The notes beneath the pieces were generated by a model. The model saw only the letters and a list, made by a program, of their open reading frames with translations, did not search any database and had not been told where the DNA came from. A program made the position numbers and the translations under genes. Below are positions 36,534-58,301 of a stretch of DNA of 58,301 bases, piece by piece (positions within the stretch are counted from its first letter, which is position 1; each line of letters begins with the position of its first letter). Source of the DNA: Ruminococcus sp. (GTDB lineage Bacteria; Bacillota; Clostridia; Oscillospirales; Ruminococcaceae); the NCBI GenBank assembly GCA_017516465.1, contig JAFXCR010000002.1, positions 1 to 58,301 of the forward strand, read 5' to 3'.

Positions 36534-36668
36534 ACCGCCGTACAAAAGCAGCAATACTTTTATAGAAACTTTATATGTATTTATCGGGGGCAACCTTTCT
36601 GAGGAAAGGTTTTCTTCAATAAAACGTAACAAACTACTATAAGAGTACTGCTATATTTGTACGGTGGT
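36534..36668. repeat. Foldback element, copy 1 (short form)
   Basis: 135 bp between convergent genes, starting 11 nt after the regulator stop. Outer arms ACCGCCGTACAAA...AGCAG and its complement pair, with differences that allow G-U. Inside are the family core TATGTATTTATCGGGGG, the hairpin AACCTTTC-TGAG-GAAAGGTT, and TTCTTCAATAAAACG. Conserved CTNTTATAG / CTATAAGAG sequence marks the boundary between variable arms and core. T-rich sequence (GATTTTGTTATTT) follows the right arm. No gene inside. Confidence 0.8.
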
Positions 36669-36675
36669 GATTTTG

Positions 36676-37839
36676 TTATTTGACGAATATCTCACGCTGT
36701 ATGCCGATTTCGCCTTCAAGCTGATAGGTTACGGTATAGGTAAGAGCTTCATCGTTATTTGTCTCAGTTATTTTTCTGTCGAGGATTTTTTTGTCATGTA
36801 GAAAATTCTTTTCATACAGATATATTTTCTTCATGAGGCGGTCGGAAAGTTCTTTTTTTGTAAGAGTCTGAGATTTTATATCCGTTTCGGAAAGCTTTTC
36901 CTTTTTAATGCCGATCGGAAGCTGTTTTCCGAACAGATTCAGGTAATTCTCTGATACTTCGGAAGTATAGTCCTTGAAGTCTGTTTCTCCGATATACAGC
37001 GGAATTTCAAGGCTGAACAGATAAAGATGACGTTTTGTTTCCTCTTTTCCGGTAAGAGCCGCTTCATCTGTATTGTATTCTCCGGTGAAGGTGAGAGTTT
37101 CTTCATAAATTCCTCTGATTTCGCCCATTGCATGATGAAGCGTGCTGTGACCTGTATCGTCAGTTGTAACTCCGGTGACAATCAGTGTTCCGGCAGGAAC
37201 GTAATCCCCGACCTTGTGCATGAGCATACCGTCATAGACTGTTGTGTATGTAATCCTTGCGTCCTTTGACGATACTATATTGCATGGGATTCTTTTAAGT
37301 TCGGTTTCCGGCTTTTCGACTATCTCTGTAACATCAACGACAACACGGTTTCCGGTATGGCGGATAGCTGCCCATGATACTCCCTGCACCATGACGCGGA
37401 GTTGATTTTCGCAGTGGTGAAAATTTATGCTTCTGATGGGAGTTCCCTTTTTGATATTAAGCTCCTCCAGAGCCGCCAGTATAGCCTGATCGCTTACTTT
37501 GGAATTTCCGTTTATCTCGATAGTCACCACCACATTCGAGAAGTAAAGTGCAGATATTGCTGCGATGAGAACTCCGATAATAATACCGAAGCGTTTTCTG
37601 TATCGCCGGAGTCTGAGAGAAAGAGAGGCATATTCAGCACACGTCAGCTCAATGCCGTACAGTTCTGCAAGCGTTTTTGTTTCTTTCAGATCACAGTGGC
37701 GGATATCGGCGTAAAATACATCCTTTTTTACATATTGTCCGCTGCATTTTACAGAACAGCTGTGTAAAGCGTTTATAAAGCCGTAGAGATCCTTTCCGGC
37801 GGCGTTAATTCTTACCCGACCTGATATGCTGTTTCTCAT
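36676..37839 (-). CDS. yqfD: Sporulation protein YqfD family
   Basis: 387 residues. A soluble N-terminus (about 1-85), one membrane helix (about 87-108, FGIIIGVLIAAISALYFSNV), and an extracytoplasmic part with KGTPIRSINF and DARITYTTVYDGMLMHKVGDYV, known YqfD blocks. In Bacillus yqfC and yqfD are sigma-E-controlled and needed for sporulation; the exact role is unknown. It overlaps yqfC by 35 nt. Confidence 0.9.
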   Translation of the reverse strand: MRNSISGRVRINAAGKDLYGFINALHSCSVKCSGQYVKKDVFYADIRHCDLKETKTLAELYGIELTCAEYASLSLRLRRYRKRFGIIIGVLIAAISALYFSNVVVTIEINGNSKVSDQAILAALEELNIKKGTPIRSINFHHCENQLRVMVQGVSWAAIRHTGNRVVVDVTEIVEKPETELKRIPCNIVSSKDARITYTTVYDGMLMHKVGDYVPAGTLIVTGVTTDDTGHSTLHHAMGEIRGIYEETLTFTGEYNTDEAALTGKEETKRHLYLFSLEIPLYIGETDFKDYTSEVSENYLNLFGKQLPIGIKKEKLSETDIKSQTLTKKELSDRLMKKIYLYEKNFLHDKKILDRKITETNNDEALTYTVTYQLEGEIGIQREIFVK

Positions 37840-38101
37840 TTTTGCTGCCGCCCCTTTCGATAAATTCCACTCTTGATATTTTGCCTCTTACGACAAGTCC
37901 TTTCGATTTGAAGTCGTATGCACGGAGATCGTTTCCCCATATCTGTATGTAAAGAGTTCCTGAAACCAACCGCATGAATATCTCGTTGTATTCTTCTATT
38001 CTTTTGCAGTTTTCAATAAGAAGTTCACGGTTGCAGTCGAAATATATCTGCGGATTGAGATAAAATGTATCCAATCCCTTTTCTTTTATTCTATTAAACA
38101 A
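37805..38101 (-). CDS. yqfC: YabP/YqfC family sporulation protein
   Basis: 98 residues, beta-rich YabP-type domain (YNEIFMRLVSGTLYIQIWGNDL, KGLVVRGKISRVEFIER). It precedes yqfD with a 35-nt overlap, the standard yqfCD order. The C-terminus is charged and runs into the yqfD start. Confidence 0.85.
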   Translation of the reverse strand: MFNRIKEKGLDTFYLNPQIYFDCNRELLIENCKRIEEYNEIFMRLVSGTLYIQIWGNDLRAYDFKSKGLVVRGKISRVEFIERGGSKNEKQHIRSGKN

Positions 38102-38164
38102 TCATATCCACTCCTCTGAGTATAATTCTCCTCTACAAATAATATGATTAATCGGGTGATTAAT

Positions 38165-39271
38165 ATGAAGAAAACAGAAGAAAAAGGAATAATCTGTCTG
38201 AAATGTGTACTGCTTATTGCTGCTGTATATTTCTGTGCCGCCGAAACTGATCTCGTCAGGACGGCAGTATCTGACGGAATAAACCGCTGTCTTACTGTTG
38301 TAATTCCTTCGCTTTATGCAATGATGATAATAGCCGTTATTATTGCGAAAAGCGGTATTCTCGGATATATTCCTTGTTTTATCAGACGTATAGGAGAAAT
38401 TCTTTTCGGAATGAGGGGGGAAAGCCTTGCTGTTTTTGCATTCAGTATGTTTGCCGGATATCCTGCCGGAACTAAAATAATAACGGAGCAGTATTCATCA
38501 GGAAGGCTCTCTGAAAGAACTGCTTCTGTACTCTGCGGAGTATGCTTCGGTGCAGGTCCGGCATTCATCATGGGATGTATATCGTGTACACTTTACGGTT
38601 CATCTCTTTCCGGAAGGATAATTATTCTTTCCACTGTTTCAGCAAATATCCTGACGGCTTTCATAGTATCGTTCATTCTCCGGAAAAGCAGTTACGCAGA
38701 AGGAGATTCACGGCGGCAGATATCCCTGAACGGCAGACTTCTGACAGAATCATTAGTTTCTGCCGGCAGGACAATGGGGGAACTATGCTTTATGATAACG
38801 GCTTTTTCCGTTATGACCGCAATGCTTGACTATTGCGGCGTGATTTCTGCTGCGGCAGGAGTTTTTTCCTCGCTTACGGGCTTCAGCAGAGAAATATCTG
38901 AAGCCTTTATTCCGGCGGTGCTTGATATAACGGCTGTGAACGGACTTCCGGCAGATAATTACGCTATGCTTCCGTGGCTTTGTGCACTTGTATCGTCCGG
39001 AGGCGTATGCGTTTTATTCCAGACAGCAGCGATTATCGCCGGACGCTTTCCTATCCGGATATTTATTCTGCTGCGTTTCTGTGCTTCTGCACTGAGCTTC
39101 GGGATATGCCGGATTGTTATGCCGTACCTGATAAGGGATGAAATTGTTCCGGCTTCGACGGTGAATGTCAGCGTATGCGGAAGTACGTCGCCCGTACCAT
39201 CGGTAATGCTTCTTCTCATGACCTTCATTATAATAGCTGAATATGACAAAATAGTAAAAATTCCAAAATAG
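38165..39271 (+). CDS. ylbJ: Sporulation integral membrane protein YlbJ family
   Basis: 368 residues from the ATG at 38165, with GGGTG about 7 nt upstream; an ATG at 38144 is in frame but lacks a site. About 8-9 membrane segments and nucleoside-recognition-type blocks (FAGYPAGTKIITEQYSSG, CFGAGPAFIMGCI). In Bacillus, YlbJ (SpoVV) helps move dipicolinic acid into the forespore. It is divergent from yqfCD with only 60-odd nt between, so the three are probably co-regulated. Confidence 0.82.
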   Translation: MKKTEEKGIICLKCVLLIAAVYFCAAETDLVRTAVSDGINRCLTVVIPSLYAMMIIAVIIAKSGILGYIPCFIRRIGEILFGMRGESLAVFAFSMFAGYPAGTKIITEQYSSGRLSERTASVLCGVCFGAGPAFIMGCISCTLYGSSLSGRIIILSTVSANILTAFIVSFILRKSSYAEGDSRRQISLNGRLLTESLVSAGRTMGELCFMITAFSVMTAMLDYCGVISAAAGVFSSLTGFSREISEAFIPAVLDITAVNGLPADNYAMLPWLCALVSSGGVCVLFQTAAIIAGRFPIRIFILLRFCASALSFGICRIVMPYLIRDEIVPASTVNVSVCGSTSPVPSVMLLLMTFIIIAEYDKIVKIPK

Positions 39272-39380
39272 TATGGAAATTCAGTGGAAAGTGTGTTATA
39301 ATAATAACATATTCGCTTTTCGGTGATTATACTATGACCGGATAGCGTCATATCAATCAGGAACAGGAGTGTTACCGCCA

Positions 39381-40643
39381 ATGAAATATGAAAGAACAGA
39401 GCTTGCCGATAATATCGGTTATTCATCTGTGATTGACGAAAAATTCAAAACGAGCTTTCTTACGGTAAGATTCATTACCGTTCTGGGCAGCAGAACTGCA
39501 GCTGCAAATGCTCTTGGAATAAGTTCATTGTCTTCGTCAAGCAGAAGCTACGACAGCATAGCAAAGCTTAACGAAAAGCTTTCGGCTCTCTATGGAGCGT
39601 CCCTGAGCAGCTTTACAAGAAAAAGAGGAGATGTTCAGATTCTTGGGTTGTCCTCCTCATGGATAAACAGCCGCTTTGCAATTGACGGTGAGGATCTTGA
39701 CGTCGAAATGCTTGAAATAGTAAAGGGATGTATATTTGATCCCAATGCGTCGGAAGGGGAATTTGAAGCGGATTCCTTCCGCATCACAAAGAAGGATCTT
39801 CTTGACCGCATTGACGCTGAACTGAACAACAAGCGTGGATATGCCATTTCAAGAGCTTCAGAGGTTGCATACAGGGGCGAGCCTGCTGAGAATTCCTGCT
39901 ACGGAACAAAAGAAACAGCAGAAGCGGTTTCGGCAAAGGAAGCTTTTGAAGCTTATAAAAGACTTCTTGAAACAGCACAGATTGAAATCTACTATATCTC
40001 ATCTGAGAAAAACGACCGTATTCCTGAAATGCTCAGAGAAGCATTTGCCGGTATAAACCGTACTCCTGAAAAGGTTGTGTTTGATGGAATAAGTCCGGTA
40101 AAGGAAGAACTGGCAGAGGTTTCCGATGAATTCGATGTAAATCAGTGCAAGATGGTTATGAACTTCAAGACGGACTGTCGGGATAAATACGCACTTAAAT
40201 TTGTGAGTACTATCTTCGGTGAAACTCCGGTATCAAAGCTGTTTGTGAATGTTCGTGAGAAGCTAAGCCTCTGCTACTATTGTGCCTGTCGTATGGTATC
40301 TTCAAAGGGTACTCTTATGGTTGACAGCGGTGTAGAGAAAAATAATATTAAAAAGGCACGAACTGAGATACTGGCACAGCTTGAAGAAATCTGTCGTGGA
40401 AATATAACTGACGACGAGATCCAGAGTGCAATGCTTTCTTTTGAAAACTCACTTTCTCAGGTCGGCGATGTGCCTTCTTCCTACGAGACATATTATTTCG
40501 AGCAATTCTGCTCTGGAAATATCATTACTCCGGCTGAACGTCTTGCTGAATACAAGGCAGTGACAAAAGAACGTATCATTGAAGCGGCAAAATCGCTCAA
40601 GCCCGACAGTGTTTATCTGATGCTCAATAAGGAGGCTGAATAA
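39381..40643 (+). CDS. yfmF: M16 peptidase-like protein YfmF
   Basis: 420 residues from the ATG at 39381 (AGGAG about 11 nt upstream; the in-frame GTG at 39369 lies within that site). M16 fold but no HxxEH zinc motif, as in the non-catalytic partner of this pair. YfmF/YfmH proteins are annotated as linked to EF-P modification in Bacillus. Its stop overlaps the next start (TAATG), so the pair is translated together. Confidence 0.85.
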   Translation: MKYERTELADNIGYSSVIDEKFKTSFLTVRFITVLGSRTAAANALGISSLSSSSRSYDSIAKLNEKLSALYGASLSSFTRKRGDVQILGLSSSWINSRFAIDGEDLDVEMLEIVKGCIFDPNASEGEFEADSFRITKKDLLDRIDAELNNKRGYAISRASEVAYRGEPAENSCYGTKETAEAVSAKEAFEAYKRLLETAQIEIYYISSEKNDRIPEMLREAFAGINRTPEKVVFDGISPVKEELAEVSDEFDVNQCKMVMNFKTDCRDKYALKFVSTIFGETPVSKLFVNVREKLSLCYYCACRMVSSKGTLMVDSGVEKNNIKKARTEILAQLEEICRGNITDDEIQSAMLSFENSLSQVGDVPSSYETYYFEQFCSGNIITPAERLAEYKAVTKERIIEAAKSLKPDSVYLMLNKEAE

Positions 40644-41917
40644 TGGAAAAGAAAATCCTTACAAGTGCAAGAACAGGCGACAGCTGTATCCATGTGAAGC
40701 ACAGCAGCGGTCTTGATATCTATATATGCGAAATGCCGGGATTCAGCAGTGTTGAGGCTCTTTTCGGAACAAAATATGGCTCAATCAATACAATGTTCAG
40801 AATGAAGGATGATGTAGAATATACAGTTGTTCCCGAAGGAATAGCACATTTTCTGGAGCATAAGCTCTTTGAAAACGAGGACTGCGATGTTTTTGAGCTT
40901 TACGCTAAAACAGGTGCAAACGGCAACGCATATACTTCCTTCGACAAGACCTGCTATCTCTTTAACTGCTCCGGGAATTATCAGGAATCACTGAAAATTC
41001 TTCTTGATTTCGTCCAGAAACCGTATTTTACTCAGGCTACTGTTGACAAGGAGCAGGGAATTATCGGTCAGGAAATCAAAATGACCAATGATAATCCTGA
41101 ATGGCGTGTGTTCTTCAATATGCTCCGCTGTATGTATCACGAGCATCCCGTTAAGATTGACATCGCAGGTACAGTCGAGAGTATTGCAAAGATCGACGCT
41201 GATCTGCTCTACAAGTGCTATCATACGTTTTATAATCTCAATAATATGGTGCTGTCGATTGCCGGAAATATTAAGGCTGACGAGGTTCTTGCGATATGCG
41301 ATGAATGCCTCAGACCGTGCGAGGATAAAGGATTGGAAACAGTATTCCCTGATGAGCCGGAAACTGTCGTTGAGCCGGAAATCTATGAGATACAGCCGGT
41401 TGGTGCCCCCATATTCCATCTGGGCTACAAGTGCCGTCCATGCAGCGGTCAGGAGCGTCTGAAAAAATCTATGGCAGCATCACTTGCAGTTTCACTCATA
41501 ACTGACGCTTCCACAGATATGTACAAAAAACTCCTTGACGACGGTGTTATCAATTCCAGCTTCGGCGGAGAGGTTTTTGTCGGTGACGGATATTTCTCTG
41601 TGATATTCAGCGGAGAATCAGCTTCTCCAGAGATCATCCGTGACAGCATCAGAAACGAAGCTGAAAGGCTCATCAGCGAGGGCATAAATGAAAAGGATTT
41701 CCAGCGTATAAAGAAATCTGCATACGGTATGTCAATCCGTGAGCTTAACAATGTCGAGGTTGTCGCAAATCTCATGATAAACGCTCACATGGAGGGTGCC
41801 GGTCCGTATGATTCAATCGAAGTTCTTTCAGAAATGACCTCACAGGATGTACTTGATTTTATCCGTAGTGAGCTTGATCCTGAAAAGCTTGTACTATCCG
41901 TTGTAAAAGGAGAGTGA
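40643..41917 (+). CDS. yfmH: M16 zinc peptidase YfmH
   Basis: 424 residues. The inverted zinc motif HxxEH is at H69-F-L-E72-H73 (GIAHFLEHKLFE), and the third ligand is probably the Glu in DKEQGIIGQEIKM. It is the catalytic partner of the preceding HxxEH-less protein; together they form a heterodimeric M16 peptidase. One-base overlap with yfmF and 4-nt region of overlap with the lgt leader show tight coupling. Confidence 0.9.
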   Translation: MEKKILTSARTGDSCIHVKHSSGLDIYICEMPGFSSVEALFGTKYGSINTMFRMKDDVEYTVVPEGIAHFLEHKLFENEDCDVFELYAKTGANGNAYTSFDKTCYLFNCSGNYQESLKILLDFVQKPYFTQATVDKEQGIIGQEIKMTNDNPEWRVFFNMLRCMYHEHPVKIDIAGTVESIAKIDADLLYKCYHTFYNLNNMVLSIAGNIKADEVLAICDECLRPCEDKGLETVFPDEPETVVEPEIYEIQPVGAPIFHLGYKCRPCSGQERLKKSMAASLAVSLITDASTDMYKKLLDDGVINSSFGGEVFVGDGYFSVIFSGESASPEIIRDSIRNEAERLISEGINEKDFQRIKKSAYGMSIRELNNVEVVANLMINAHMEGAGPYDSIEVLSEMTSQDVLDFIRSELDPEKLVLSVVKGE

Positions 41918-41922
41918 TTAAA

Positions 41923-43044
41923 GTGAAGGCAGTTGAAAAAATAACGGAACTTGATAAAATATCCTTCCCTAAGCTTGGCTGGGAATTCAAAATTGATCCT
42001 ACTGCATTCAGAATAGGAAATCTCGAAATCCAGTGGTATGGAATCCTTATCACACTTGGACTTGTGCTTGCGGTTCTTTACTGTATGCCAAAAATGAAAC
42101 GCTTCGGTCTTGACGCCGACAGAGCTATCGATGCTGTTATCGGCGGAGTTATCGGCGGAATTATCGGTGCAAGAGCATATTATGTGATATTCAACTGGAG
42201 CGAATACAAAGGCGATTTCAAGGAAATATTCAACACCCGCGGCGGAGGTCTTGCGATATACGGCGGAATTATCGGAGCAGTTCTTGTGGGGCTGCTGATA
42301 TGTAAGCTGCGTAAAGTAAAAATGCTCCCCATGCTTGATATTACCGTTCTCGGATTCCTGATAGGACAAGGTATCGGACGCTGGGGAAACTTTATAAATC
42401 AGGAAGCTTATGGTACAAATACCGACAGCCTTTTTGGCATGACAGGCGGAAGAATTCAGGCAGAGCTTGCATGGGAATCTACTGATATATCTGGCGATAT
42501 GGCTCAGAAGGGGATAGAAGTTTTCGCTGATTATGCCGTTCATCCCTGTTTCTTATACGAGTCCCTCTGGTGTCTGCTGGGATTTGTAATCCTTGCGTTT
42601 ATCTCAAAGCACAGAAAATATGACGGACAGATATTCCTTATGTATCTCGGCTGGTACGGTGCAGAAAGATTCTTCGTTGAAGGTTTGCGTACAGACAGCC
42701 TTATGGTCGGAAATATCAGAGTTTCACAGCTTCTCTCTGCCGTACTTTTCGTGGTGTCGGTAATCCTTCAGATAGTGATTTTCTCCAGAAGAAGGAGAGA
42801 TCCGGAAGCATTTGTACTCTATGTAAATACGGAAGAATCAAGAAGACTTATTGAGGAATCACGCAGAAAGCGTATGGGAGTTCCTGTTGAGGATATCGGG
42901 CTTGGTGCAGATGACGACGATATTGAAGAAGAATTCTTTGATGATATTGACGATGATGATATCCCTGCTGATGCCGATGACATTGACGAGGCACAGGAAG
43001 TTTCAATGGAAAAACAGGATAATGAAAATAAGGAGGATAAATAA
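41923..43044 (+). CDS. lgt: Prolipoprotein diacylglyceryl transferase with acidic tail
   Basis: 373 residues from a GTG at 41923, 10 nt after AGGAG; a GTG at 41914 overlaps the yfmH stop and is too close. Lgt blocks: IQWYGILITLG, GGIIGARAYYVIF, RGGGLAIYGGIIGA, GIGRWGNFINQEAYG and YGAERFFVEGLRTD. It adds diacylglycerol to the lipobox Cys, and so serves the several lipoproteins in this window. After the last membrane helix (about 295) a cytosolic tail of about 75 residues ends in a strongly acidic stretch (DDDDIEEEFFDDIDDDD), not part of the usual enzyme. Confidence 0.95.
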   Translation: MKAVEKITELDKISFPKLGWEFKIDPTAFRIGNLEIQWYGILITLGLVLAVLYCMPKMKRFGLDADRAIDAVIGGVIGGIIGARAYYVIFNWSEYKGDFKEIFNTRGGGLAIYGGIIGAVLVGLLICKLRKVKMLPMLDITVLGFLIGQGIGRWGNFINQEAYGTNTDSLFGMTGGRIQAELAWESTDISGDMAQKGIEVFADYAVHPCFLYESLWCLLGFVILAFISKHRKYDGQIFLMYLGWYGAERFFVEGLRTDSLMVGNIRVSQLLSAVLFVVSVILQIVIFSRRRRDPEAFVLYVNTEESRRLIEESRRKRMGVPVEDIGLGADDDDIEEEFFDDIDDDDIPADADDIDEAQEVSMEKQDNENKEDK

Positions 43045-43902
43045 ATGGCACAGATAATTGACGGAAAGGCAGTTTCAGCTGCTGTAAAACAGGAGGTTGC
43101 TGAGGAAACAGCAAGACTTAAGGACGAGAAAGGTCTGAAAATTGGACTTGCAGTTGTTATCGTGGGAAATAATCCTGCATCAAGGGTTTATGTAAACAAC
43201 AAGAAAAAGGCTTGCGAAGCAGTAGGCTTCCAGTCATTTGAGTATGCTCTTGATGAAAATACTACTCAGGAACAGCTCCTTGATCTTATTAATGTACTTA
43301 ACCGCGATGTAAGAGTAAACGGAATTCTTGTTCAGCTTCCTCTCCCTGCACATATCGACGAGAAAAAGGTTATCGATGCTATTTCTCCCGACAAGGATGT
43401 TGACGCATTTCATGCAATAAACGTAGGTAAAATTATGATCGGCGAGTACGCATTCCTTCCCTGTACACCGGCTGGAGTTATGCGTCTCATCGAAAGCACA
43501 GGCACAGAGATTTCCGGAAAGCAGTGCGTTGTTATCGGTAGAAGCAATATCGTGGGCAAGCCTATGGCAATGCTTCTCCTTCACCAGAGCGGAACAGTTA
43601 CAATCTGCCACTCCAGAACACAGAATCTTAAGGAAATCTGCCTCGGTGCTGATATTCTTGTCGTTGCTGTCGGAAAGGCTAACTTTGTTACCGGCGATAT
43701 GATTAAGGAAGGTGCAGTTGTTATTGACGTTGGTATGAATCGTCTCGATAACGGTAAGCTCTGCGGAGACGTTGAGTATGAATCTGCTGAGAAAAAGGCT
43801 TCTTATATTACACCTGTTCCCGGCGGAGTTGGTCCTATGACTATCGCTATGCTTATGAAAAATACTCTCACTGCTGCTAAACAGCAGGTTGGTATTGAAT
43901 AA
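43045..43902 (+). CDS. folD: Methylenetetrahydrofolate dehydrogenase/cyclohydrolase
   Basis: 285 residues. FolD blocks: YVNNKKKACEAVGF (catalytic Lys), VQLPLPAHI, PDKDVDAFH, PCTPAGVMRLI, VIGRSNIVGKPMA and PVPGGVGPMTIAML. It interconverts methylene-, methenyl- and formyl-THF. The ATG directly follows the lgt stop, with AAGGAGGA inside the lgt 3' end. Last gene of yfmF-yfmH-lgt-folD. Confidence 0.97.
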   Translation: MAQIIDGKAVSAAVKQEVAEETARLKDEKGLKIGLAVVIVGNNPASRVYVNNKKKACEAVGFQSFEYALDENTTQEQLLDLINVLNRDVRVNGILVQLPLPAHIDEKKVIDAISPDKDVDAFHAINVGKIMIGEYAFLPCTPAGVMRLIESTGTEISGKQCVVIGRSNIVGKPMAMLLLHQSGTVTICHSRTQNLKEICLGADILVVAVGKANFVTGDMIKEGAVVIDVGMNRLDNGKLCGDVEYESAEKKASYITPVPGGVGPMTIAMLMKNTLTAAKQQVGIE

Positions 43903-43919
43903 TTAGATAATATAAAAAC

Positions 43920-44041
43920 AACCTGTAATAGTGGTTCTCTTATAGAGTTTTACACGTTTTTGTTGAGGAAAAACCTTTTGAAAAAGGTTTCCACCGATAA
44001 ATACATGTAAAGATTCCATAAAAGAATCATTGTTACAGGTT
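43920..44041. repeat. Foldback element, copy 2 (short form, inverted)
   Basis: 122 bp, 17 nt after the folD stop, between convergent genes. Outer arms AACCTGTAATAGTGG... and ...CATTGTTACAGGTT pair over about 28 nt; four of six differences still allow G-U. Inside: GTTGAGGAA, hairpin AAACCTTTT-GA-AAAAGGTTT, CCACCGATAAATACATGTAAAG, which is the family core read in the opposite direction from copy 1. TTATTTTAG follows, like a terminator T run. Confidence 0.8.
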
Positions 44042-44058
44042 ATTTTAGTATTATCTGA

Positions 44059-44658
44059 TTATTCTGCATCTGATGTTGTTTCGGTGTTTGTACCATATCG
44101 CTCAACGAGACCATTGAGAGTACCGACAAATTTCCAGCCATCGCCTTCGACCTTTACAAGACAAGAGGTATCTGATTTTTCATTGCCGTTGTTATCAATG
44201 ACAGTGCATTTGAAATTATAGCCTTCTGTAACAACGAGGTCATCTGCGGTGATACCACGGGTTGCAGTAAAGTCTTTAAGGTACTGTTCTGCCCAGCCGA
44301 GCTGTTCTTCAGATAGGCTTATTTTTTCGTCAATGCTTTTAAGTGACGGAGTATATTCGCTGAGATCGAGCATCTGGTTTTTTCCATTATTATAGTTGAG
44401 AATAAGCTGTCTGTATTCGTTTTTTGCGATCATATCGTCGATCATCTGCTGAGTGTACATATAATTGAACGCAGCTTCTCCGGCGTCTCTGGTATAGTTA
44501 GCTGTAAAGAAGTCTTTGAGAGCATCTTCGCCGGAGCCATTTTTCTGCTCTTCGCCGTAAACGATAGTGCTTTCGGTATCACTGCTTTTTTTCTCACAGG
44601 AGGCTCCGCAGGCAGTGATGAGACAGCAGGCAAGAATTGCCGATAATATTTTTTTCAT
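44059..44658 (-). CDS. Lipoprotein of unknown function
   Basis: 199 residues. Signal with candidate lipobox LITAC (Cys 17) and another Cys at 21. A polar linker follows, then a mixed alpha/beta domain (about 45-190) with an end like a small secreted sensor or NTF2-like fold (SCLVKVEGDGWKFVGTLNGL). This last point is weak inference. It follows the TraB/GumN-like gene by 15 nt on the same strand, so they share a transcript. Confidence 0.75.
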   Translation of the reverse strand: MKKILSAILACCLITACGASCEKKSSDTESTIVYGEEQKNGSGEDALKDFFTANYTRDAGEAAFNYMYTQQMIDDMIAKNEYRQLILNYNNGKNQMLDLSEYTPSLKSIDEKISLSEEQLGWAEQYLKDFTATRGITADDLVVTEGYNFKCTVIDNNGNEKSDTSCLVKVEGDGWKFVGTLNGLVERYGTNTETTSDAE

Positions 44659-44673
44659 AGTATTTTCTCCTTA

Positions 44674-45768: not shown

Positions 45769-45797
45769 TTAAAAATCCTTTCATGGTAAATAAATTC

Positions 45798-45821
45798 ACA
45801 GGAGCTCCCTATAACTCCTGT
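45798..45821 (-). promoter_or_regulatory. 5'-end hairpin of the TraB/GumN transcript
   Basis: ACAGGAG / CTCCTGT lies just after the predicted start point of the promoter at 45828-45856 and before the gene. A stem at the 5' end can stabilise mRNA; it could also be a weak terminator for read-through from rpoC. Confidence 0.45.
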
Positions 45822-45827
45822 TTAATT

Positions 45828-49658: not shown

Positions 49659-49696
49659 ACTGCTACCTCCTGTTTAGTAGGTATAAGATCTCACTG

Positions 49697-49724
49697 CTGC
49701 GGAAGTCATGTTATGCTCCCGCAG
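49697..49724 (-). promoter_or_regulatory. Intercistronic hairpin between rpoB and rpoC
   Basis: CTGCGG / CCGCAG with a 16-nt loop within the 94-nt gap. It may be a processing or stability site; no promoter is seen in the gap. Confidence 0.45.
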
Positions 49725-49752
49725 AGTGGGTATCATTGGTTTCAGGCTTATA

Positions 49753-52700
49753 TTAATCCTCATCGGAGGAGTCATCAAGATCAAAGCTGCCGAAGATATC
49801 GTCATCGTCATCATCGAGTCCGAGACTGCCGTCTTCTTCGTCGTCATCGTCGAATCTGAAATCGTCGCCATCGTCGAGCATACCGAAGTCATCGTCATCG
49901 CCGCTGTCTTCAAAGGAGAAGCCGCTTTCTTCAATGTCGCTGTCTGAGTATTCTGAGTTATCTCTTGTATCCTCATCAGCGTATGAATCGTTGGAAGGCA
50001 TCGGATCTTCATCGTCAAAGTTCTGCTTGAGGTCGATTTCCTGCTGATTTTCGTCAAGCACACGGACATCAAGACCGAGTGACTGCATTTCCTTGATAAG
50101 AACCTTGAAGGATTCAGGAATACCAGGAGTAGGAACATTCTGTCCCTTGACGATTGATTCGTATGTGTTGACACGACCGATAGTATCGTCTGATTTAACT
50201 GTAAGGATTTCCTGAAGGGTGTAAGCGGCACCGTAAGCTTCAAGAGCCCATACTTCCATTTCTCCGAAACGCTGACCGCCGAACTGAGCCTTACCGCCCA
50301 GAGGCTGCTGTGTAACGAGAGCGTAAGGTCCGACTGAACGTGCGTGGATCTTATCGTCAACGAGGTGGTGGAGTTTGAGGTAGTACATATATCCGACAGT
50401 TACCTTGTTATCGAACATTTCACCAGTACGTCCGTCATAAAGCGGGAACTTACAGTCCTCGTTGAATTCAAGACCATTGGGGTTGATAACCTTATCCATA
50501 GTGTTGAGTTCAAACATATCATTGCGGTGTTCTTTGCTTTTTTCGTTTGCCTGACGGAAGCAGGATCTGATATCGTCCTCGTGTGCACCATCAAATACAG
50601 GCGTCATGATGTGCCAGCCGAGAGCCTTGCACGCCATACCGAGGTGAACTTCAAGTACCTGACCGATGTTCATACGGGAAGGAACGCCCAGAGGGTTGAG
50701 TACGATGTCAAGAGGAGTTCCGTCAGGAAGGAAGGGCATATCTTCTTCAGGAAGGATTCTTGATACAACACCCTTGTTTCCGTGACGGCCAGCCATCTTA
50801 TCACCGACAGTAATTTTTCTCTTCTGTGCGATATAGCAGATAACACGCATATTTACGCCTGCACTGAGTTCATCGCAGTTTTCTCTTGTAAATACCTTTA
50901 CATCAACGATAACACCGGATTCACCGTGAGGAACCTTGAGTGAATTGTCACGGACTTCTCTTGCCTTTTCACCGAAGATAGCACGGAGAAGTCTTTCTTC
51001 AGCAGTGAGCTCAGTTTCGCCCTTTGGTGTTACCTTACCGACGAGGATATCGCCGGAATTTACTTCAGAACCGATGCGGATGATACCGTTTTCGTCGAGG
51101 TTGGCCAGAGCGTCATCACCGACATTGGGAATGTCACGGGTGATTTCCTCAGGACCAAGCTTTGTATCACGGCATTCGATTTCGTATTCTTCAATATGAA
51201 CGGAAGTGAATACATCCTCACGGACAAGACGCTCATTAAGGAGAACCGCGTCTTCGTAGTTGTAGCCTTCCCATGTCATGAAGCCGATAAGTGCGTTTTT
51301 ACCGAGGGATATTTCACCGTCTGCTGTTGCGGGACCATCAGCAAGGACCTGACCCTTTGTAACCTTTTCGCCTACTGAAACGATAGGACGCTGATTTACG
51401 CAGGTACCCTGGTTGGAACGCTTGAATTTGATAAGTTCGTATTTGTGTTCAATGCCTGTATCGTCGATAAGACGGATACTGTCTGCGTCAACGTAGGAGA
51501 TAGTTCCGTTGTACTTAGAAACAACGCATACACCGGAGTCAACAGCCGCCTTGTATTCCATACCTGTGCCGACGAAGGGACGCTCAGTCTTAAGAAGCGG
51601 AACAGCCTGACGCTGCATATTTGATCCCATAAGTGCACGGTTAGCGTCATCGTTTTCAAGGAAAGGAATCATCGATGTAGCAACTGAAACTACCATCTTA
51701 GGTGAAACGTCCATGTAATCAACGGATTCTCTGGGACATTCAAGGATCTGCTCACGGTAACGTGCATTTACACGGGGTCTTACGAACTTTCCTTCCTCAG
51801 TGAGGGGTTCGTTAGCCTGTGCAACAACGTAGTTATCCTCAGTATCGGCTGTCATGTAGACAACTTCGTTTGTAACAACGCCTGTTGCCTTGTCAACCCT
51901 TCTGTATGGAGCTTCAATGAAGCCGTACTCGTTGATGCGTGCGAATGTGGCAAGATATGAGATAAGTCCGATGTTAGGACCTTCAGGCGTCTCAATAGGA
52001 CACATTCTTCCGTAGTGGCTGTAATGAACGTCACGAACCTCGAATCCGGCACGGTCTCTTGAAAGACCTCCGGGACCGAGTGCGGAGAGACGTCTTTTAT
52101 GTGTAAGCTCAGCAAGAGGATTGTTCTGGTCCATGAACTGTGACAGTGGTGAGGAGCAGAAGAATTCCTTCATAGCTGAAGAAACAGGTCTGATATTGAT
52201 AAGAGTCTGTGGTGTGAGTGTATTTACATCCTGAGTCTGGATGTTCATTCTCTCACGGATACCTCTTTCCATACGGGCGTAACCGATACGGAACTGATTC
52301 TGGAGAAGTTCGCCCACACTGCGGATACGTCTGTTGCCGAGGTGGTCGATATCATCAACAGTTCCCACGCCCTCGCAGAGGTTGAGGAAGTAGCTGACAG
52401 TTGCGTAGATATCATCAAGGATGATGTGCTTGGGAACGAGTTCGTCAGCACGCTTCTTGATATTTTCTTCAAGCTCGTCTGCATCAGCGGAGGTTTCCAT
52501 AATTTCTCTGAGAACCTTGTATGAAACCTTTTCGTTGATACCGTACTTTGTAGCGTCAAAGTCAATGTAGCCAGCAATATCAACCATGCCGTTTCCGATG
52601 ATCTTGGCTACTTTCTCAACTATTTTGATAGTAGTTTCACCACGTTCGTCAGTAACGTATTCCTTGGCTTCAACGTTTACGAAAGCGTAGTATACGCCTG

Positions 52701-53667
52701 CCTGTTCGATTTCAAGAGCCTTGTCGTATGTGAGTGTTTCGCCTTCTTCAGCCATGATTTCGCCTGTATTGGGGTTGATGATAGGCTGAGCAATTGTACG
52801 CCCTGCAAGACGTGAAGCGATACCGAGCTTCTTGTTGTACTTGTAACGTCCGAAGCGGCAGAGGTCGTATCTTTTAGCATCGAAGAAGAGATTATTGAGA
52901 TGAGAAAGTGCACTTTCAACAGTAGGAGGCTCACCGGGACGGAGTTTCTTATAAACATCTATAAGAGCGTCAGAGTTGTTTTTTGTCTGATCCTTATGGA
53001 GGATAGTCTGCTTAAGGCGGTCATCATCGCCGAACATCTCAAAAATTTCCTCGTCAGTACCCACACCGAGAGCACGGATAAAGGTAGTGAGCGGGATTTT
53101 TCTGTTCTTGTCGATGCGGACATAAACAACGTCGTTGGAATCCATTTCATATTCCAGCCATGCACCTCTGTTAGGGATAACTGTTGAATTGAAAAGATCC
53201 TTACCGGTCTTGTCTTTTTCAAAAGCGTAGTAAACGCCGGGGGAACGTACAAGCTGTGAAACGATAACACGTTCTGCACCGTTGATCACAAAGGTTCCGC
53301 TTTCTGTCATAAGCGGAAAATCGCCCATGTAGATTTCGCTTTCACTTACTGCACCTGTTTCCTTGTTGCAGAGTGTAGCGGTAGCTCTCATAGCAACCTG
53401 ATACGTTGCACCTCTTGATTTACATTCAGCAAGGGTGTACTTTGGGGTTTCATCGAAGCGGTAGTCCTTGAAATTAAGGACGAGATTTCCGTTATAGTCA
53501 GTGATTGCGGTCATATCACGGAAAACCTCTCGCAGACCTTCTCCTCTGAACCATTCATAGGAGTTTTTCTGAACCTCGATGAGATTCGGCATTTTGAGAG
53601 GCTCGGTAATTTTTCCGAAGCTCATTCTGACATTTTTTCCCAACTGCTTAGGTGTGACATTCACCAT
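49753..53667 (-). CDS. rpoB: RNA polymerase beta subunit with long acidic C-terminal tail
   Basis: 1304 residues. Standard RpoB blocks: [40 protein letters not shown] (rifampicin pocket, quoted in two parts here: [17 protein letters not shown] and [13 protein letters not shown]), [15 protein letters not shown], and [20 protein letters not shown]. After the usual end near QEIDLKQNF about 80 residues form a low-complexity Asp/Glu/Ser tail ([20 protein letters not shown]). AAGGAGGT precedes the ATG. It has a perfect promoter and no rplJL genes before it. Confidence 0.98.
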
Positions 53668-53749
53668 AGGCGGAACCTCCTTATATTTTGTCTGTCCTGT
53701 TTCCGGGACGGATTATATGCTGTAATTCTGAAAAAATCTCACAAAGCTA

Positions 53750-53778
53750 TTGACAAAAGCTTTTCTGTGTGATATAAT
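53750..53778 (+). promoter_or_regulatory. Consensus promoter of the ABC-F gene
   Basis: TTGACA, 17 nt, TATAAT. Start point about 53785, giving a leader of about 230 nt. It points toward the rpoB promoter, which lies 45 nt further right, so the two face each other. Confidence 0.85.
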
Positions 53779-53823
53779 ATCTTAACAGAATAGTGATACT
53801 TTTCCATACTGATACATTATATT

Positions 53824-53852
53824 ATTATAATACAAATAATCTGCTGTGTCAA
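53824..53852 (-). promoter_or_regulatory. Consensus promoter of rpoBC
   Basis: On the minus strand TTGACA, 17 nt, TATAAT. Start point about 53817, leader about 150 nt. Its transcript runs through the plus-strand ABC-F promoter. Confidence 0.88.
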
Positions 53853-53879
53853 TAGGGTTTGGAAACATTTATCAAAACT

Positions 53880-53912
53880 GCCGGATTTCAAACTTTTGTC
53901 CGGCTTTTTTTT
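53880..53912 (+). terminator. Terminator/attenuator in the ABC-F leader
   Basis: GCCGGA-13 nt-TCCGGC followed by eight T, about 95 nt after the predicted start point and about 105 nt before the ABC-F ATG. Two further CCGGCATTG copies lie downstream (53963 and 53985). Genes for antibiotic-resistance ABC-F proteins are often controlled by such leader attenuators, so drug-induced read-through is plausible. No clear leader peptide with an ATG is visible. Confidence 0.75.
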
Positions 53913-54016
53913 GTAAATATTCATATCCGGTAATTTCAGACCATCGGAATGTATCAAAAAAATCCGGCATTGCCGAAGATTGTTCCGGCATTGTCTTTGT
54001 TTGAGGAAGATTTTCT

Positions 54017-55942
54017 ATGCTTGCAAGTCTTATAAATATAAACAAATTCTATAACGGAAACCAGCTTCTCAATAATGTATCTCTTACCATCGACGAGACT
54101 GACAAGATAGGTCTTGTGGGAAACAACGGCTGCGGAAAAACTACGCTTCTTAAGATACTGACGGGTTCAGTGGAGCCTGATCGTTTTACTGAAAAGGACG
54201 GCATCGTTTCAATTGCCGCAAAGACTACCGTGGGCTATCTGGAGCAGATGAATGGTCTTGATTCCGAAAAAACAGTCATCGAGGAAATGAGAAGCGTTTT
54301 CAGACCGATTCTTGACGCAATCGACAGACTCCGTGAAATCGAGCTTGAAATCGAGCTTGGCGATAATTCTTCCGCTGACGAGTATCAGCAGCTTTCGTCG
54401 TGGATTGAGGCAAATGACGGCTACAATACTGATGTTAAAATCCGCATGATCCTGAATGGCATGGGATTTTCCGGAGATGATCTTAACCGTGTCTGTGCAG
54501 GCTTCAGCGGAGGCGAAAAAACACGTCTCTGTATCGCCAGACTTCTTCTTGAAGAACCGAATCTGCTTGTTCTTGACGAGCCAACGAACCATCTTGACTT
54601 TAAAACAATCATGTGGCTGGAGGATTATCTGCGTTCTTACAGGGGAGCAATACTCATTGTATCGCATGACCGTTACTTTCTGGACAGACTGTGTACATCA
54701 ATTTGTGAGATTGAAAGAGGAACATTGACGAGATACAGAGGAAATTACTCTGCATTTGTTCGCCAGAGAAGCGAAAACGATGCCCGCCGTGAAAAGGAAT
54801 ACGAGATGCAGCAGAAGGAAATTGCTCAGCTGGAGGACTATGTTGCACGAAATCTTGTGAGGGCGTCCACAACAAAAATGGCACAGAGCCGCCGCAAGAA
54901 GCTTGAAAAGATTGAAAGGATTGAAAAGCCTTTTCACGAGACGAAAAACGCTAAAATAAGCTTTACTTATGCTGTGGAGCCTCCTATTGACGTGCTTAAG
55001 GTCAAGGGAATTGATATCTCTGTCGGTGAGGGGATCAGCCGGAAAACTCTTGTGGATGAAATGGATTTTGAAGTCCGCAGGGGAGAAAAAATCGGAATTA
55101 TCGGTGACAATGGCATTGGAAAATCCACACTTCTGCGGATTATTCAGGAAAAGCTTCCGCATAAGGGAATTGTTCGCTGGAACAGCAATATCAAAATTTC
55201 CTACTTTGAACAGGAAAGTGCAAATCTTAACCGTGAACTTACCGTTATGGAGGAGCTTCACAGCCGCTATCCCTCAATGTCTGAATTAGAGGTCAGGGGA
55301 CTTCTTGCACAGGTTCGGCTTGTGGGGGAAAATGTTTTCAAGGAGACGGGAGTAATCAGTGGCGGAGAACGTGCAAAGCTGTGTTTTGCGATAATGATGC
55401 AGGAACACGCCAATGTCCTTATCCTTGATGAGCCTACTAACCATCTTGATCTTTCGTCAAAAGAGGCTATCGAAGAAGCTCTTTCTGAATATACGGGAAC
55501 GGTGATTTTTGTTTCACATGACCGATATCTCCTCAGTAAGATAGCTGACAGACTTATCGAGCTTACAGACGGGGAATGCCGTTTGCATAACTATAATTTT
55601 GATAAATATCTTGATGTTCTCCGTGAGGAACAGGCAGAGCAGAAACGTATAGCAGATGCGGAGAAATTCGCAAAGGCGGCAGAAGCTGCAAAAGAGAAAT
55701 CCACAAAGATTTACCGCAGCAAGCAGCAGAGAAGTGCAGATGCCGCAAGAAAGAACGAAATGAGGGCACTTGAAAAGGAAATCGACGAGTTACAGGCAAA
55801 AATAGATCTGCTTACCGAGGAAATCGGACGTGAGGATGTTTACAGCGACTACGAGCTGATGAACTCGAAATGCTCTGAAATTGAAACTCTGAAACAGAAA
55901 ATCGACGAAAACTTTGAACGCCTGATTGAACTTGATGAATAA
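54017..55942 (+). CDS. ABC-F family ATPase (ribosome-acting)
   Basis: 641 residues, no membrane segment. Two ABC domains: Walker A GNNGCGKTT (35-43), signature FSGGEKTR, Walker B LVLDEPTNHLD; then GDNGIGKST, SGGERAK and LILDEPTNHLD. The linker between them is the P-site tRNA-interaction region, and the C-terminus is a coiled coil (about 560-641). ABC-F proteins bind the ribosomal E site and ease stalling or displace antibiotics. The layout resembles the YdiF/YfmR/resistance group; which one is not certain. The leader attenuator favours a stress- or drug-inducible role. Confidence 0.92.
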   Translation: MLASLININKFYNGNQLLNNVSLTIDETDKIGLVGNNGCGKTTLLKILTGSVEPDRFTEKDGIVSIAAKTTVGYLEQMNGLDSEKTVIEEMRSVFRPILDAIDRLREIELEIELGDNSSADEYQQLSSWIEANDGYNTDVKIRMILNGMGFSGDDLNRVCAGFSGGEKTRLCIARLLLEEPNLLVLDEPTNHLDFKTIMWLEDYLRSYRGAILIVSHDRYFLDRLCTSICEIERGTLTRYRGNYSAFVRQRSENDARREKEYEMQQKEIAQLEDYVARNLVRASTTKMAQSRRKKLEKIERIEKPFHETKNAKISFTYAVEPPIDVLKVKGIDISVGEGISRKTLVDEMDFEVRRGEKIGIIGDNGIGKSTLLRIIQEKLPHKGIVRWNSNIKISYFEQESANLNRELTVMEELHSRYPSMSELEVRGLLAQVRLVGENVFKETGVISGGERAKLCFAIMMQEHANVLILDEPTNHLDLSSKEAIEEALSEYTGTVIFVSHDRYLLSKIADRLIELTDGECRLHNYNFDKYLDVLREEQAEQKRIADAEKFAKAAEAAKEKSTKIYRSKQQRSADAARKNEMRALEKEIDELQAKIDLLTEEIGREDVYSDYELMNSKCSEIETLKQKIDENFERLIELDE

Positions 55943-55953
55943 AATCACTTTGA

Positions 55954-56236
55954 TGATAGTGTTGTTTTATAGAACTTTCATATGTATTTATCGGGGGAAA
56001 CCTTTCTGAGGAAAGGTTGTCCCCCAACCCCCCTTCCAAAGACTTTTAACATTAAAATTTCAGCCGGATAGGGCACACGCAAGCAAATAAGTAATTTGAG
56101 TATTTCTCTAAGTGCGCCCTATCCGGCTGAAATTTAATACTGAAAGTTTTAGGAAAGGAGTTTGAGGAAGAACCCTTTTTCAAAAGGGTTTTCCTCAATA
56201 ATGCGTACGAGAATTCCTATAAGAGCAACAATATTA
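55954..56236. repeat. Foldback element, copy 3 (long form)
   Basis: About 283 bp, starting about 11 nt after the ABC-F stop and ending before the SCIFF promoter. Outer arms (GATAGTGTTGTT / AGCAACAATATTATT) pair if G-U is allowed. Then the core CATATGTATTTATCGGGGG, hairpin AACCTTTC/GAAAGGTT, and an inner long stem: left arm 56056-56079 (AAATTTCAGCCGGATAGGGC...), right arm 56113-56135. The second hairpin AACCCTTTT/AAAAGGGTT and TTCCTCAATAATGCG follow. The short copies look like this one with the middle removed. Confidence 0.82.
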
Positions 56237-56319
56237 TTAAAGTGGTTTTGGTCATTAGGTCAAATTTATCAGCTTCAAAATAACTGGTTTGTCGAAAATA
56301 ACGAAAAAACAAAAAGCTA

Positions 56320-56348
56320 TTGAAAAATGTGATATATTGTGATATAAT
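56320..56348 (+). promoter_or_regulatory. Promoter of the SCIFF locus
   Basis: TTGAAA, 17 nt, TATAAT, about 65 nt before the precursor ATG. Confidence 0.78.
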
Positions 56349-56412
56349 GGTGATAAAGATATAGCGGTGCTGTGCTGATAGCATCGTAATTGGAAAACAG
56401 GAGGTTTTTAAA

Positions 56413-56550
56413 ATGAAACACATCAAGACTATCAATAAGGCTAATCTCAAGGAATCCGCTAAGAAGGGCGGCTGCGGCAAGTGCCAGGCTTCATGCCAGT
56501 CTGCATGTAAGACATCTTGCACAGTAGCTAACCAGAAGTGCGAGAGATAA
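56413..56550 (+). CDS. scfA: SCIFF ranthipeptide precursor
   Basis: 45 residues with exactly six Cys (21, 24, 28, 32, 36, 43) after a leader MKHIKTINKANLKESAKKGG. This is the SCIFF family (six cysteines in forty-five residues), found in nearly all Clostridia. The radical-SAM maturase encoded next forms a Cys-to-Thr thioether; Thr 34 and Thr 37 are the available Thr in the core. The mature product and its role are not known. The start follows GGAGG by about 9 nt. Confidence 0.96.
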   Translation: MKHIKTINKANLKESAKKGGCGKCQASCQSACKTSCTVANQKCER

Positions 56551-56594
56551 TCGTAGCAGCGAAATTCTGCTGACTATATTATAAGTATGCTATT

Positions 56595-56622
56595 GAGGCA
56601 GTTTTTACTGCCTCTATTTTTC
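56595..56622 (+). terminator. Partial terminator between scfA and scfB
   Basis: GAGGCAGT-TTTT-ACTGCCTC followed by TATTTTTCTACTTTTT. It lies after the peptide gene and before the maturase gene, so most transcripts should end here and a fraction read through. This would give excess precursor over enzyme. Confidence 0.85.
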
Positions 56623-56647
56623 TACTTTTTAGGATGGTGCGTTAAAT

Positions 56648-58021
56648 ATGATACATAAATACAAGCTTAACGGATTTAATATTGTTCTTGACGTAAACAG
56701 CGGCGGCGTTCATATCGTGGACGAGCTTACATATGATCTTCTTGACAATATCGAACCGCCATTTGATGAAAAATGCAGTGAAAAGGTTATCGAAAAGCTT
56801 TCAAAACACTACACAAGAGAGGATATCGAATCCTGCTATCAGGAAATCGTTGAGCTTTACAACGAAAAGATTCTTTTCTCCGATGACGATTACGAGAAAT
56901 ATGCAAAGTATTCCGTAGCTTCTCCGGTAAAGGCAATGTGTCTGAATATCGCTCATGACTGCAATCTCCGCTGTAAGTACTGCTTTGCGTCTACCGGCGA
57001 TTTCGGCAAGGGACGCAAGCTTATGTCACTTGAAACAGGTAAGCATGCTATTGATTTTCTCCTTGAAAATTCCGGCGACAGACCTAACCTTGAGCTTGAT
57101 TTCTTCGGCGGCGAACCGCTTATGAATTTCGATGTAGTCAAGCAGATCGTAAATTACGCAAGAAGCCGTGAGGGCGAATACAACAAGAAATTCCGCTTCA
57201 CTATCACTACAAACGGTCTTCTCCTTGACGACGACAAGATTGACTTCATCAACAAGGAAATGTCAAACGTTGTTCTTTCTATCGACGGAAGAAAAGAAGT
57301 CAACGACTACTTCAGAGTCCGTGTTGACGGCACAGGAAGCTACGATAAAATTATGCCCATGTACAAGAAGCTTGTTGCCGGCAGAGGCGATAAGGAGTAC
57401 TATGTAAGAGGTACTTTCACAAAGAAGAATCTCGACTTCTCAGAGGACGTTTTTGCCCTTTATAACGAGGGATTTGACCAGATCTCCGTTGAACCCGTAG
57501 TAGGCGATTCAGATGAATTTGCACTCACAGAAAAAGAACTTCCGGCAGTTTTCAATGAGTATGAAGTTCTTGCACAGAGAATCCTTGACAACGAGAAAAA
57601 GGGTGGAAAGTTCAACTTCTTCCACTTTATGATAGACCTCGATCAGGGTCCTTGTGCTATCAAGAGACTGAGAGGATGCGGCTGCGGTAACGATTATGTC
57701 GCAATTACTCCCGACGGTGATATTTTCCCGTGTCATCAGTTTGTTGGTATTGATGAGTATAAAATGGGTAATATCGACGAGGGGACTTTCAATCAGGAAA
57801 TGAAGGCGGATTTCGCTGCGGCTCATGTATATTCAAAACCTGAATGCCAGAAATGCTGGGCTAAATTCTACTGCAGCGGCGGCTGTAACGCTAATAATTA
57901 CCAGTATATGGGTGATATCCGCTCTGCTCATAAGCTTTCATGCCAGCTTGAAAAGAAACGCCTTGAATGTGCTATCATGATGAAGGCAATCAGACTTTTC
58001 GGCGAACAGGATGCAGAATAA
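56648..58021 (+). CDS. scfB: SCIFF radical SAM maturase with SPASM domain
   Basis: 457 residues. An N-terminal peptide-recognition (RRE-like) region (about 1-90), then the radical-SAM motif CxxxCxxC at C105/C109/C112 (DCNLRCKYCF) with DFFGGEPLMNF. The C-terminal SPASM domain carries more Fe-S ligands: CGCG near 347-350, FPCHQF, and CQKCWAKFYCSGGC. It binds S-adenosylmethionine and cross-links the SCIFF peptide. 97 nt separate it from scfA, with a terminator between. Confidence 0.96.
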   Translation: MIHKYKLNGFNIVLDVNSGGVHIVDELTYDLLDNIEPPFDEKCSEKVIEKLSKHYTREDIESCYQEIVELYNEKILFSDDDYEKYAKYSVASPVKAMCLNIAHDCNLRCKYCFASTGDFGKGRKLMSLETGKHAIDFLLENSGDRPNLELDFFGGEPLMNFDVVKQIVNYARSREGEYNKKFRFTITTNGLLLDDDKIDFINKEMSNVVLSIDGRKEVNDYFRVRVDGTGSYDKIMPMYKKLVAGRGDKEYYVRGTFTKKNLDFSEDVFALYNEGFDQISVEPVVGDSDEFALTEKELPAVFNEYEVLAQRILDNEKKGGKFNFFHFMIDLDQGPCAIKRLRGCGCGNDYVAITPDGDIFPCHQFVGIDEYKMGNIDEGTFNQEMKADFAAAHVYSKPECQKCWAKFYCSGGCNANNYQYMGDIRSAHKLSCQLEKKRLECAIMMKAIRLFGEQDAE

Positions 58022-58030
58022 TTATGCTTC

Positions 58031-58301
58031 CGTTATAACAGCGGTATTTTAGAAATTTTTATGCGTGTTATTGAGGAAAACCCTTTTGAAAAAGGGTTGT
58101 TCCTCAAACTCCTTTCCTAAAACTTTCAGTATTAAATTTCCGCCTGATAGGGCTCACACCACAAACATATGAGAAACTTGATTTTTTCTCTCTGTGAGCC
58201 CTATCAGGCGGAAATTTTAATGTTAAAAGTCTTTGGAAGGGGGTTCGGGGGACAACCTTTCCTCAGAAAGGTTTCCCCCGATAATATGTATAAATATTCT
58301 A
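58031..58301. repeat. Foldback element, copy 4 (long form, inverted, cut by window end)
   Basis: Starts about 9 nt after the scfB stop. Reading right to left it repeats copy 3: ATTGAGGAAAACCC, hairpin AACCCTTTT/AAAAGGGTT, inner stem left arm 58134-58158 (AAATTTCCGCCTGATAGGGC...), right arm 58193-58217, hairpin AACCTTTC/GAAAGGTT, CCCCCGATAATATGTA. The last outer arm (expected complement of CGTTATAACAGCGGTA) falls beyond the window. Confidence 0.8.

Follow-up and report, generated by a model that had tools for sequence, protein, structure and literature searches.

The window analysed here is a stretch of 58,301 nucleotides (nt) from Ruminococcus sp. (GenBank assembly GCA_017516465.1, contig JAFXCR010000002.1), corresponding to contig C18 of genome G000, which is assembled as 2.0 Mb in 55 contigs. 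It carries four copies of a short, self-folding repeat that probably represents an insert in the loop of intrinsic transcription terminators, and relatives of these copies are found inverted in place between closely related genomes. An earlier note, made from the letters alone, had located the copies at 36534, 43920, 55954 and 58031, and all four are present there. Each follows a gene stop (36522, 43902, 55942 and 58021), as the note had said, at 10-18 nt from these starts rather than the 9-17 nt it gave; folding places the stem starts at 36528, 43906 and 55940 for copies 1 to 3. The proposal that the outer arms differ among copies and pair within each copy also holds, the given arm sequences being self-complementary. 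In the stretches scanned between the four stops and the copies, no other terminator-like hairpin appears, as the note had supposed, except for short ones within the arms of copies 1 and 4. Neighbouring genes give Pfam matches to HTH_AraC with GGDEF, YqfD, tetrahydrofolate dehydrogenase/cyclohydrolase, an ABC ATPase (two ABC_tran stretches and ABC_tran_Xtn) and a radical SAM/SPASM protein.

The centre of the element is missing from copies 1 and 2 (short forms) and present in copies 3 and 4 (full forms). Copy 1 (36528..36674, plus strand) lies between the stop at 36522 and a convergent open reading frame (ORF) at 36676-37839. Its 19-bp outer stem (36528-36546 / 36656-36674) encloses a second stem (36550-36565 / 36637-36652) and an inner hairpin (36574-36628), without the long central hairpin. 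Copy 2 (43906..44055, minus strand) is inverted relative to copy 1, forms a near-continuous stem (43906-43965 / 43995-44055) and occupies the space between the stop at 43902 and a convergent ORF at 44059-44658, for which no Pfam match is found at the limit used. Copy 3 (55940..56250, plus strand) forms a four-way junction, with an outer stem and terminal repeats (55940-55988 / 56200-56250) enclosing three plus-strand hairpins: conserved hairpin 1 (55993..56025, CGGGGG-AACCTTTCTGAGGAAAGGTT type), a central hairpin (56031..56158) with a conserved base and an upper stem that is copy-specific yet self-complementary, and conserved hairpin 3 (56162..56198, TTGAGGAA-AACCCTTTTTCAAAAGGGTT-TTCCTCAA type). 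Copy 4 (58031..58301, minus strand), an inverted full form, is cut by the contig end at 58301; its right flank lies on contig C37 of G000, which terminates in an element of this kind and bears the right flank predicted by synteny with genome G011. Folding yields z-scores of -9.95, -9.98 and -14.6 for copies 1, 2 and 3, with no shuffled sequence folding as well; the truncated copy 4 is left out of this calculation.

These copies belong to a family that is widespread in the genus. A blastn search of G000 with copy 1 returns 22 matches, two of them at chance level, leaving 20 clear ones. With a full-length copy as query, matches occur in 25 of 60 genomes, comprising 24 of the 36 from the genus (G000 included) and one weak match outside it. 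The hosts fall in Ruminococcus, in the Ruminococcus flavefaciens group; the matches listed include R. flavefaciens FD-1, XPD3002, YRD2003, ND2009, SAb67 and MC2020 as well as many rumen and gut metagenome-assembled genomes (MAGs). The plasmids and phages searched contain no match to the element. Two contigs in IMG/VR do match, and the flanks of one match a bacterial locus of genome G001 at 96-97% identity.

The insert measures about 100-400 bp. In a full copy, the order is a site-specific arm, a terminal repeat, hairpin 1, the long central hairpin (conserved at its base), hairpin 3, a terminal repeat and the second arm, with the terminal repeat reading TAAGnGTGnTACTCATATAGAAGTTTTATATG in the consensus and TATGTGCGGTACTCGTAAAGAAG in genome G007. 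Two additional hairpin modules may adjoin hairpins 1 and 3. At two pairs of sites that are otherwise 99% identical (L136 and L121; L137 and L120), one genome has a module next to hairpin 1 or 3 that the other lacks, which implies independent gain or loss of modules. In the consensus fold, the outer stem and three hairpins meet in a four-way junction, and 34 of the 71 consensus base pairs have changed on both sides in at least one of the 30 alignment rows, which represent 29 distinct copies (L042 and L172 are the same copy) and include one partial row (L112). The centres are copy-specific and self-matching as well: across 129 unique centres, self-pairing has a mean rank of 0.06-0.09 in windows 6-32 nt from the base, reported as ranks only because N letters spoiled some centre energies. 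Rfam gives no match at gathering score on the whole window, and the hits of copy 3, many of microRNA type, all lie far below that score and were rejected. A different dispersed repeat (GTAGGGGCGGATATTATCCGCC-like) also occurs after gene ends, in G011 contig C98 downstream of a folD-like gene (L059), in G013 contig C3 (L080) and in G035 (L065).

Outer-arm pairing extends well beyond the window. The analysis compared 14-nt windows outside the core hairpin, scoring every left arm against the right arm of the same copy and against the partners of all other copies. Among 85 copies, own partners pair at -13.0 kcal/mol against -5.3 for others at 34-48 nt (2.6 standard deviations (sd); own partner best in 38 of 85) and at -14.0 against -5.4 kcal/mol at 40-54 nt (2.8 sd; best in 45 of 85), and the signal is gone by about 60 nt from the core hairpin. 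A second set of 62 copies, different by sequence and drawn partly from the same genomes, gives 2.7 and 2.6 sd in the two windows, with the own partner best in 30 and 33 of 62. The first set includes copy 3 and not copies 1, 2 and 4, and the 147 copies in total exclude those less than 110 nt from a locus end or lacking either conserved hairpin. Direct reading of about 12 sites in G007 reveals a near-constant end sequence next to a flank that is different at each site and self-complementary. The box CTNTTATAG, which the earlier note had taken as the outer edge, is not the boundary there: near-constant sequence extends about 11 nt further out, to TATGTG, and turns site-specific only beyond it.

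The arms also have the composition of a terminator. On the right flank, the T fraction reaches 0.61 at 48-51 nt and falls to about 0.30 further out, and on the left flank a mirror-image A fraction of 0.63 appears at 52-55 nt, against about 0.3 beyond; the second set is similar in both respects. GC-rich sequence lies immediately inside both tracts, so that the arms as a group display a GC-rich stem followed by a T tract just past a stop codon. These position profiles and strict helices were used in place of counts around free duplexes, where T and A tracts (2.88 and 3.64 per 10) barely differ from background (2.96 and 3.09) and the duplex overran the stem. Facing stops within 130 nt of the core are found on both sides of 58 of 82 and 30 of 51 assessable copies in the two sets and on neither side of 2 of 82 and 3 of 51, while 117 of 3000 random positions have facing stops on both sides. 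Judged from sequence, the outer arms resemble a bidirectional intrinsic terminator whose loop holds a self-folding insert.

Relatives that lack the insert were compared as well. At four loci, one of them assessed through a single flank, a relative carries a plain terminator with the same or a clearly related stem. In G000 C42 compared with G011 C125, the left arm GACGACCAGTAA continues with AGTCGTC in the empty site. In G011 C11 compared with G000 C41, the empty site reads ATCCCCCGA/TCGGGGGAT and the arms around the insert read ATCCCCTGAT/ATCAGGGGAT. The site in G007 C51 has a related stem with several changes in G035 and G010, by which it is counted once; at the ortholog in the window, the genes are just 26 nt apart and a terminator is absent. 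The single-flank match is G007 C52 (L156) against G035. These loci demonstrate insertion into a terminator loop without proving that it is general. In all, 14 two-sided comparisons were made, judged by eye with one count per site, giving 3 stem matches, 9 hairpins with an unrelated stem and 2 sites without a visible terminator. Single-flank comparisons stand outside the 14 (the C54 end, C57, C123 and C69; L213, L216, L218 and L156 against G035; sites 3 and 4 against G013; site 4 against G021; and the folD-like gene in genomes besides G011), and L156 against G035 is the only one of them with a matching stem. At the site of copy 2, the stretch examined after the folD-like gene shows no element in G011 or in 18 further genomes of the genus. 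L341 and L058 proved not to be one site and were excluded, and L158, a stretch that contains part of the element, was kept out of one query. In one further pair, C28 and G011 C33 (L201), a deletion has left hairpin 1 alone, followed by T-rich sequence, as if the inner hairpin had become the terminator; it is counted neither way.

Comparison of occupied sites reveals inversion in place. At one locus shared by G001 and an IMG/VR contig, with flanks 96-97% identical, the elements match at 97% with one of them inverted and at 73% without inversion. At another, G011 C57 and MAG RGIG4258 share flanks of 97-98% identity, and the elements are 100% identical inverted and 72% otherwise. In both clean flips, the outside arms keep their orientation. 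The earlier note was therefore right that copies occur in either direction, although at these two loci the cause is inversion in place and not independent insertion. Nine sites are occupied in both G000 and G011 with recognisable ends, and the end facing each arm was checked at all nine. Orientation is the same at C39, C29 and C49, where the copies are 99-100% identical. It is inverted at site 3 and C53 (82-83% identity inverted against 71-75% otherwise, with differing centres), and also at C50, C54:89k and C15/C7, where the element is partly assembled in one genome or the other. At site 3, the position of copy 3, G011 has the same outer arms, an inverted inner part and a different centre. Site 4 is uncertain, as the element end next to the left arm (C18) and the one next to the right arm (C37) are of the same kind in G000. 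Overall, orientation differs at 7 of 10 unambiguous shared sites. Site 1 was left out of this count; in G011 it holds a degenerate short form with strongly diverged arms, mostly through transitions, that are still self-complementary. Differing centres inside constant arms indicate that inner parts are also exchanged, probably through gene conversion between copies. As for the break at site 4, both C18 and C37 end inside the element, which could mean that both orientations exist in the sample or that the assembly broke at a palindromic, head-to-head double copy; because the second explains the break equally well, inversion within the G000 population is not claimed.

Taken together, the preferred interpretation is that non-autonomous palindromic inserts, resembling miniature inverted-repeat transposable elements (MITEs), sit in the loops of intrinsic terminators in Ruminococcus, having arrived by transposition, been rescued by folding and flipped; it is given a probability of roughly 65%. 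Several results weigh against it, and the empty-site misses are a real weakness. The nine unrelated stems come from G000 C40, C12 and window copy 2, from G011 C64, C52, C106, C138 and C98:23.6k, and from G007 C52 against G010; the C40 stems are perhaps diverged relatives, not scored as a match, and for C98:23.6k the window has 1.3 kb between the two genes. No hairpin is visible at XPD3002 L293 against G012 or at site 3 against G021. Turnover of terminators explains these misses poorly, since ordinary ones are largely conserved between G000 and G011. The window stretch has eight terminator-like places, and six of them share their stem with the corresponding position in G011; the others are the element site at 25397 and a place already counted, read in reverse. 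No clean target duplication is found; C42 against G011 is compatible with duplication of TA or TAA, and the other empty sites are too diverged. An outer helix of at least 6 bp is absent from 5 of the 85 copies, and no mobilising transposase was found. Counts of G-T against A-C likewise reveal no strand preference at convergent sites (73 and 71) and a weak one at single-gene sites (40 and 29), and this bias is not conclusive as evidence. The earlier note's claim of insertion into terminator-hairpin loops consequently stands in part: the joined arms form the relative's terminator at four loci and the A and T tracts bracket the stem, but nine of the 14 comparisons have unrelated stems and two have none.

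An alternative reading is that the unit moves as a whole, its arms being part of a single structured RNA or terminator element with an outer stem that evolves quickly by compensatory changes. At the empty sites that mismatch, the relative has nothing corresponding to the arms; the arms of site 1 differ strongly between G000 and G011 while remaining self-complementary, and almost half of the consensus pairs carry the two-sided changes noted above. Such a travelling unit does not account for the four relatives with the same or a related stem in a plain terminator, nor for the abrupt change in G007 from near-constant to locus-specific sequence at TATGTG. The arms are also nearly unchanged between G000 and G011 at sites 3, 4, C50, C53, C29, C39 and C49, and so they are not generally fast. 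The earlier note had raised an RNA element with a fast-changing outer stem as its alternative; the site 1 arms and the paired changes bear it out only in part, and as a general explanation it is unlikely. The same mismatching sites would fit arms that were made or repaired after insertion by template switching, a form of quasi-palindrome correction in which the hairpin end is extended and one flank is copied onto the other, with no terminator there beforehand. Stems of several copies that reach into a gene end or stop codon (for example L148 and L003) and a centre that is likewise copy-specific yet self-complementary suit this process. It gives no account of empty sites that already bear the stem, and a GC-rich stem with a T tract at constant spacing is the architecture of a terminator, making template switching as the origin of the arms an improbable alternative.

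The flips suggest a different possibility, that of an inverton, in which a site-specific recombinase flips the segment and switches neighbouring genes on and off. DNA is indeed inverted in place between inverted repeats at the two loci. However, the border repeats of the two clean flips are unlike each other, which does not suit a single sequence-specific recombinase and favours a process able to use any inverted repeat, and most copies lie between two gene ends, where no promoter would be switched. A switch of this kind is very improbable. Least credible of all is the idea that these are ordinary dead MITE palindromes near gene ends, self-pairing because their two terminal repeats share ancestry: the terminal repeats are present and alike, but pairing is weak across copies and strong between own partners, and the two-sided changes and the stems at empty sites likewise go against it.

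For terminator-loop insertion, the course of events may be pictured as follows. The insert would arrive by transposition favouring hairpin loops, and its own folding would join the two halves of the split terminator stem, so that termination survives. The flanking inverted repeats, formed by the terminator stem together with the terminal repeats, would let the inside flip through recombination or template switching between the arms, for which minute inversions in chloroplast hairpin loops and inversions between short inverted repeats in E. coli offer precedents. Ectopic gene conversion may then swap inner modules. A bolder version, in which the family recognises terminator hairpins of any sequence by their structure, rebuilds them with its four-way junction, is tolerated there and flips back and forth by means of the host's inverted repeats, is tentative and falls somewhat short of even odds.

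The family is classified as a new variant of MITE-like palindromic repeats. It has terminal inverted repeats, with both ends of the TATGTG...TACTC...AGAAG type in G007 and diverged versions elsewhere, and it is short, multicopy and non-coding, with no listed ORF of at least 90 amino acids lying wholly inside a window copy. In G007, the sole genome tried, no autonomous element with matching ends was seen by reading, which involved no family search between the ends. Of the 29 end matches there, seven loci were inspected; the readable ones hold short copies, full copies or a copy interrupted by other DNA, and at one locus just the DNA adjoining the match was visible. The split copy in contig C54 (32171-42543; L273, L254) is apparently one element interrupted by about 10 kb of other DNA, and beside one of its ends lies a gene on the minus strand that is recombinase-like by eye, without a family search. 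An IS630-type transposase was considered as the motor. Its domain PF13358 (DDE_3, IS630/Tc1-type) has no match in G000 and occurs in 2 of 35 searched genomes, both among the 21 that belong to this genus, and the stronger locus (L211) lacks a matching end motif, leaving this candidate unsupported.

These observations suggest that the interior of terminators is a neutral niche for mobile DNA, one that spares genes and leaves their ends functional. The sites also offer natural split terminators with loops of 100-400 nt, which could test how far co-transcriptional folding joins the stem halves, and natural markers for inversion between short inverted repeats. The element may in addition account for some of the breaks in Ruminococcus assemblies. 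In G000, 8 of the 20 clear matches lie at contig ends, and among the matches listed, several R. flavefaciens MAG contigs end near the element. A separate observation concerns the radical SAM/SPASM gene of the window (56648-58021): upstream of a radical SAM/SPASM gene in the relative G021 (C112, L082), a short Cys-rich peptide is encoded, and the two resemble a putative SCIFF precursor and maturase pair.

Among described repeats, the bacterial MITEs RUP, Correia/NEMIS and ERIC are the closest in form. According to a review, they have TA at their ends and, like the Ruminococcus inserts, are small, intergenic, palindromic and multicopy with terminal repeats (PMC2229807). Terminator loops are not the subject of that review, which has no words beginning "terminat" or "hairpin" (PMC2229807). 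RUP is tied there to IS630-Spn1 (PMC2229807), whereas the search of G000 found no IS630-type transposase. Efa-1 of Enterococcus faecalis is another intergenic family, with a fold of two adjacent stem-loops; the portion of its description that was available does not mention locus-specific arms or loop insertion (PMC2267715), both of which are described here for the Ruminococcus inserts. The literature search found no description of terminator-loop inserts or of this repeat, and since most subscription papers fell outside its coverage, it is no proof of absence.

Other systems share one aspect or another of this arrangement. Efar repeats have reportedly been proposed as bidirectional terminators. 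IS1397, ISKpn1 and similar insertion sequences (ISs) insert in the loop of REP/PU palindromes and thus resemble the Ruminococcus inserts in structure-guided insertion into a palindrome; they are autonomous and target one repeated palindrome, whereas the Ruminococcus inserts hit unrelated terminators and have no known enzyme. Group IIC introns also use terminator hairpins as landing sites, but their insertion point lies past the hairpin, and they are ribozymes that encode a reverse transcriptase. In the non-coding DNA of chloroplasts, minute inversions affect hairpin loops; there too, a loop inverts between the inverted repeats of a hairpin at a gene end, while in Ruminococcus the loop is a whole bacterial repeat element of 100-400 bp. 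What is new in relation to these systems is that an insert flips in place inside a terminator loop between close relatives.

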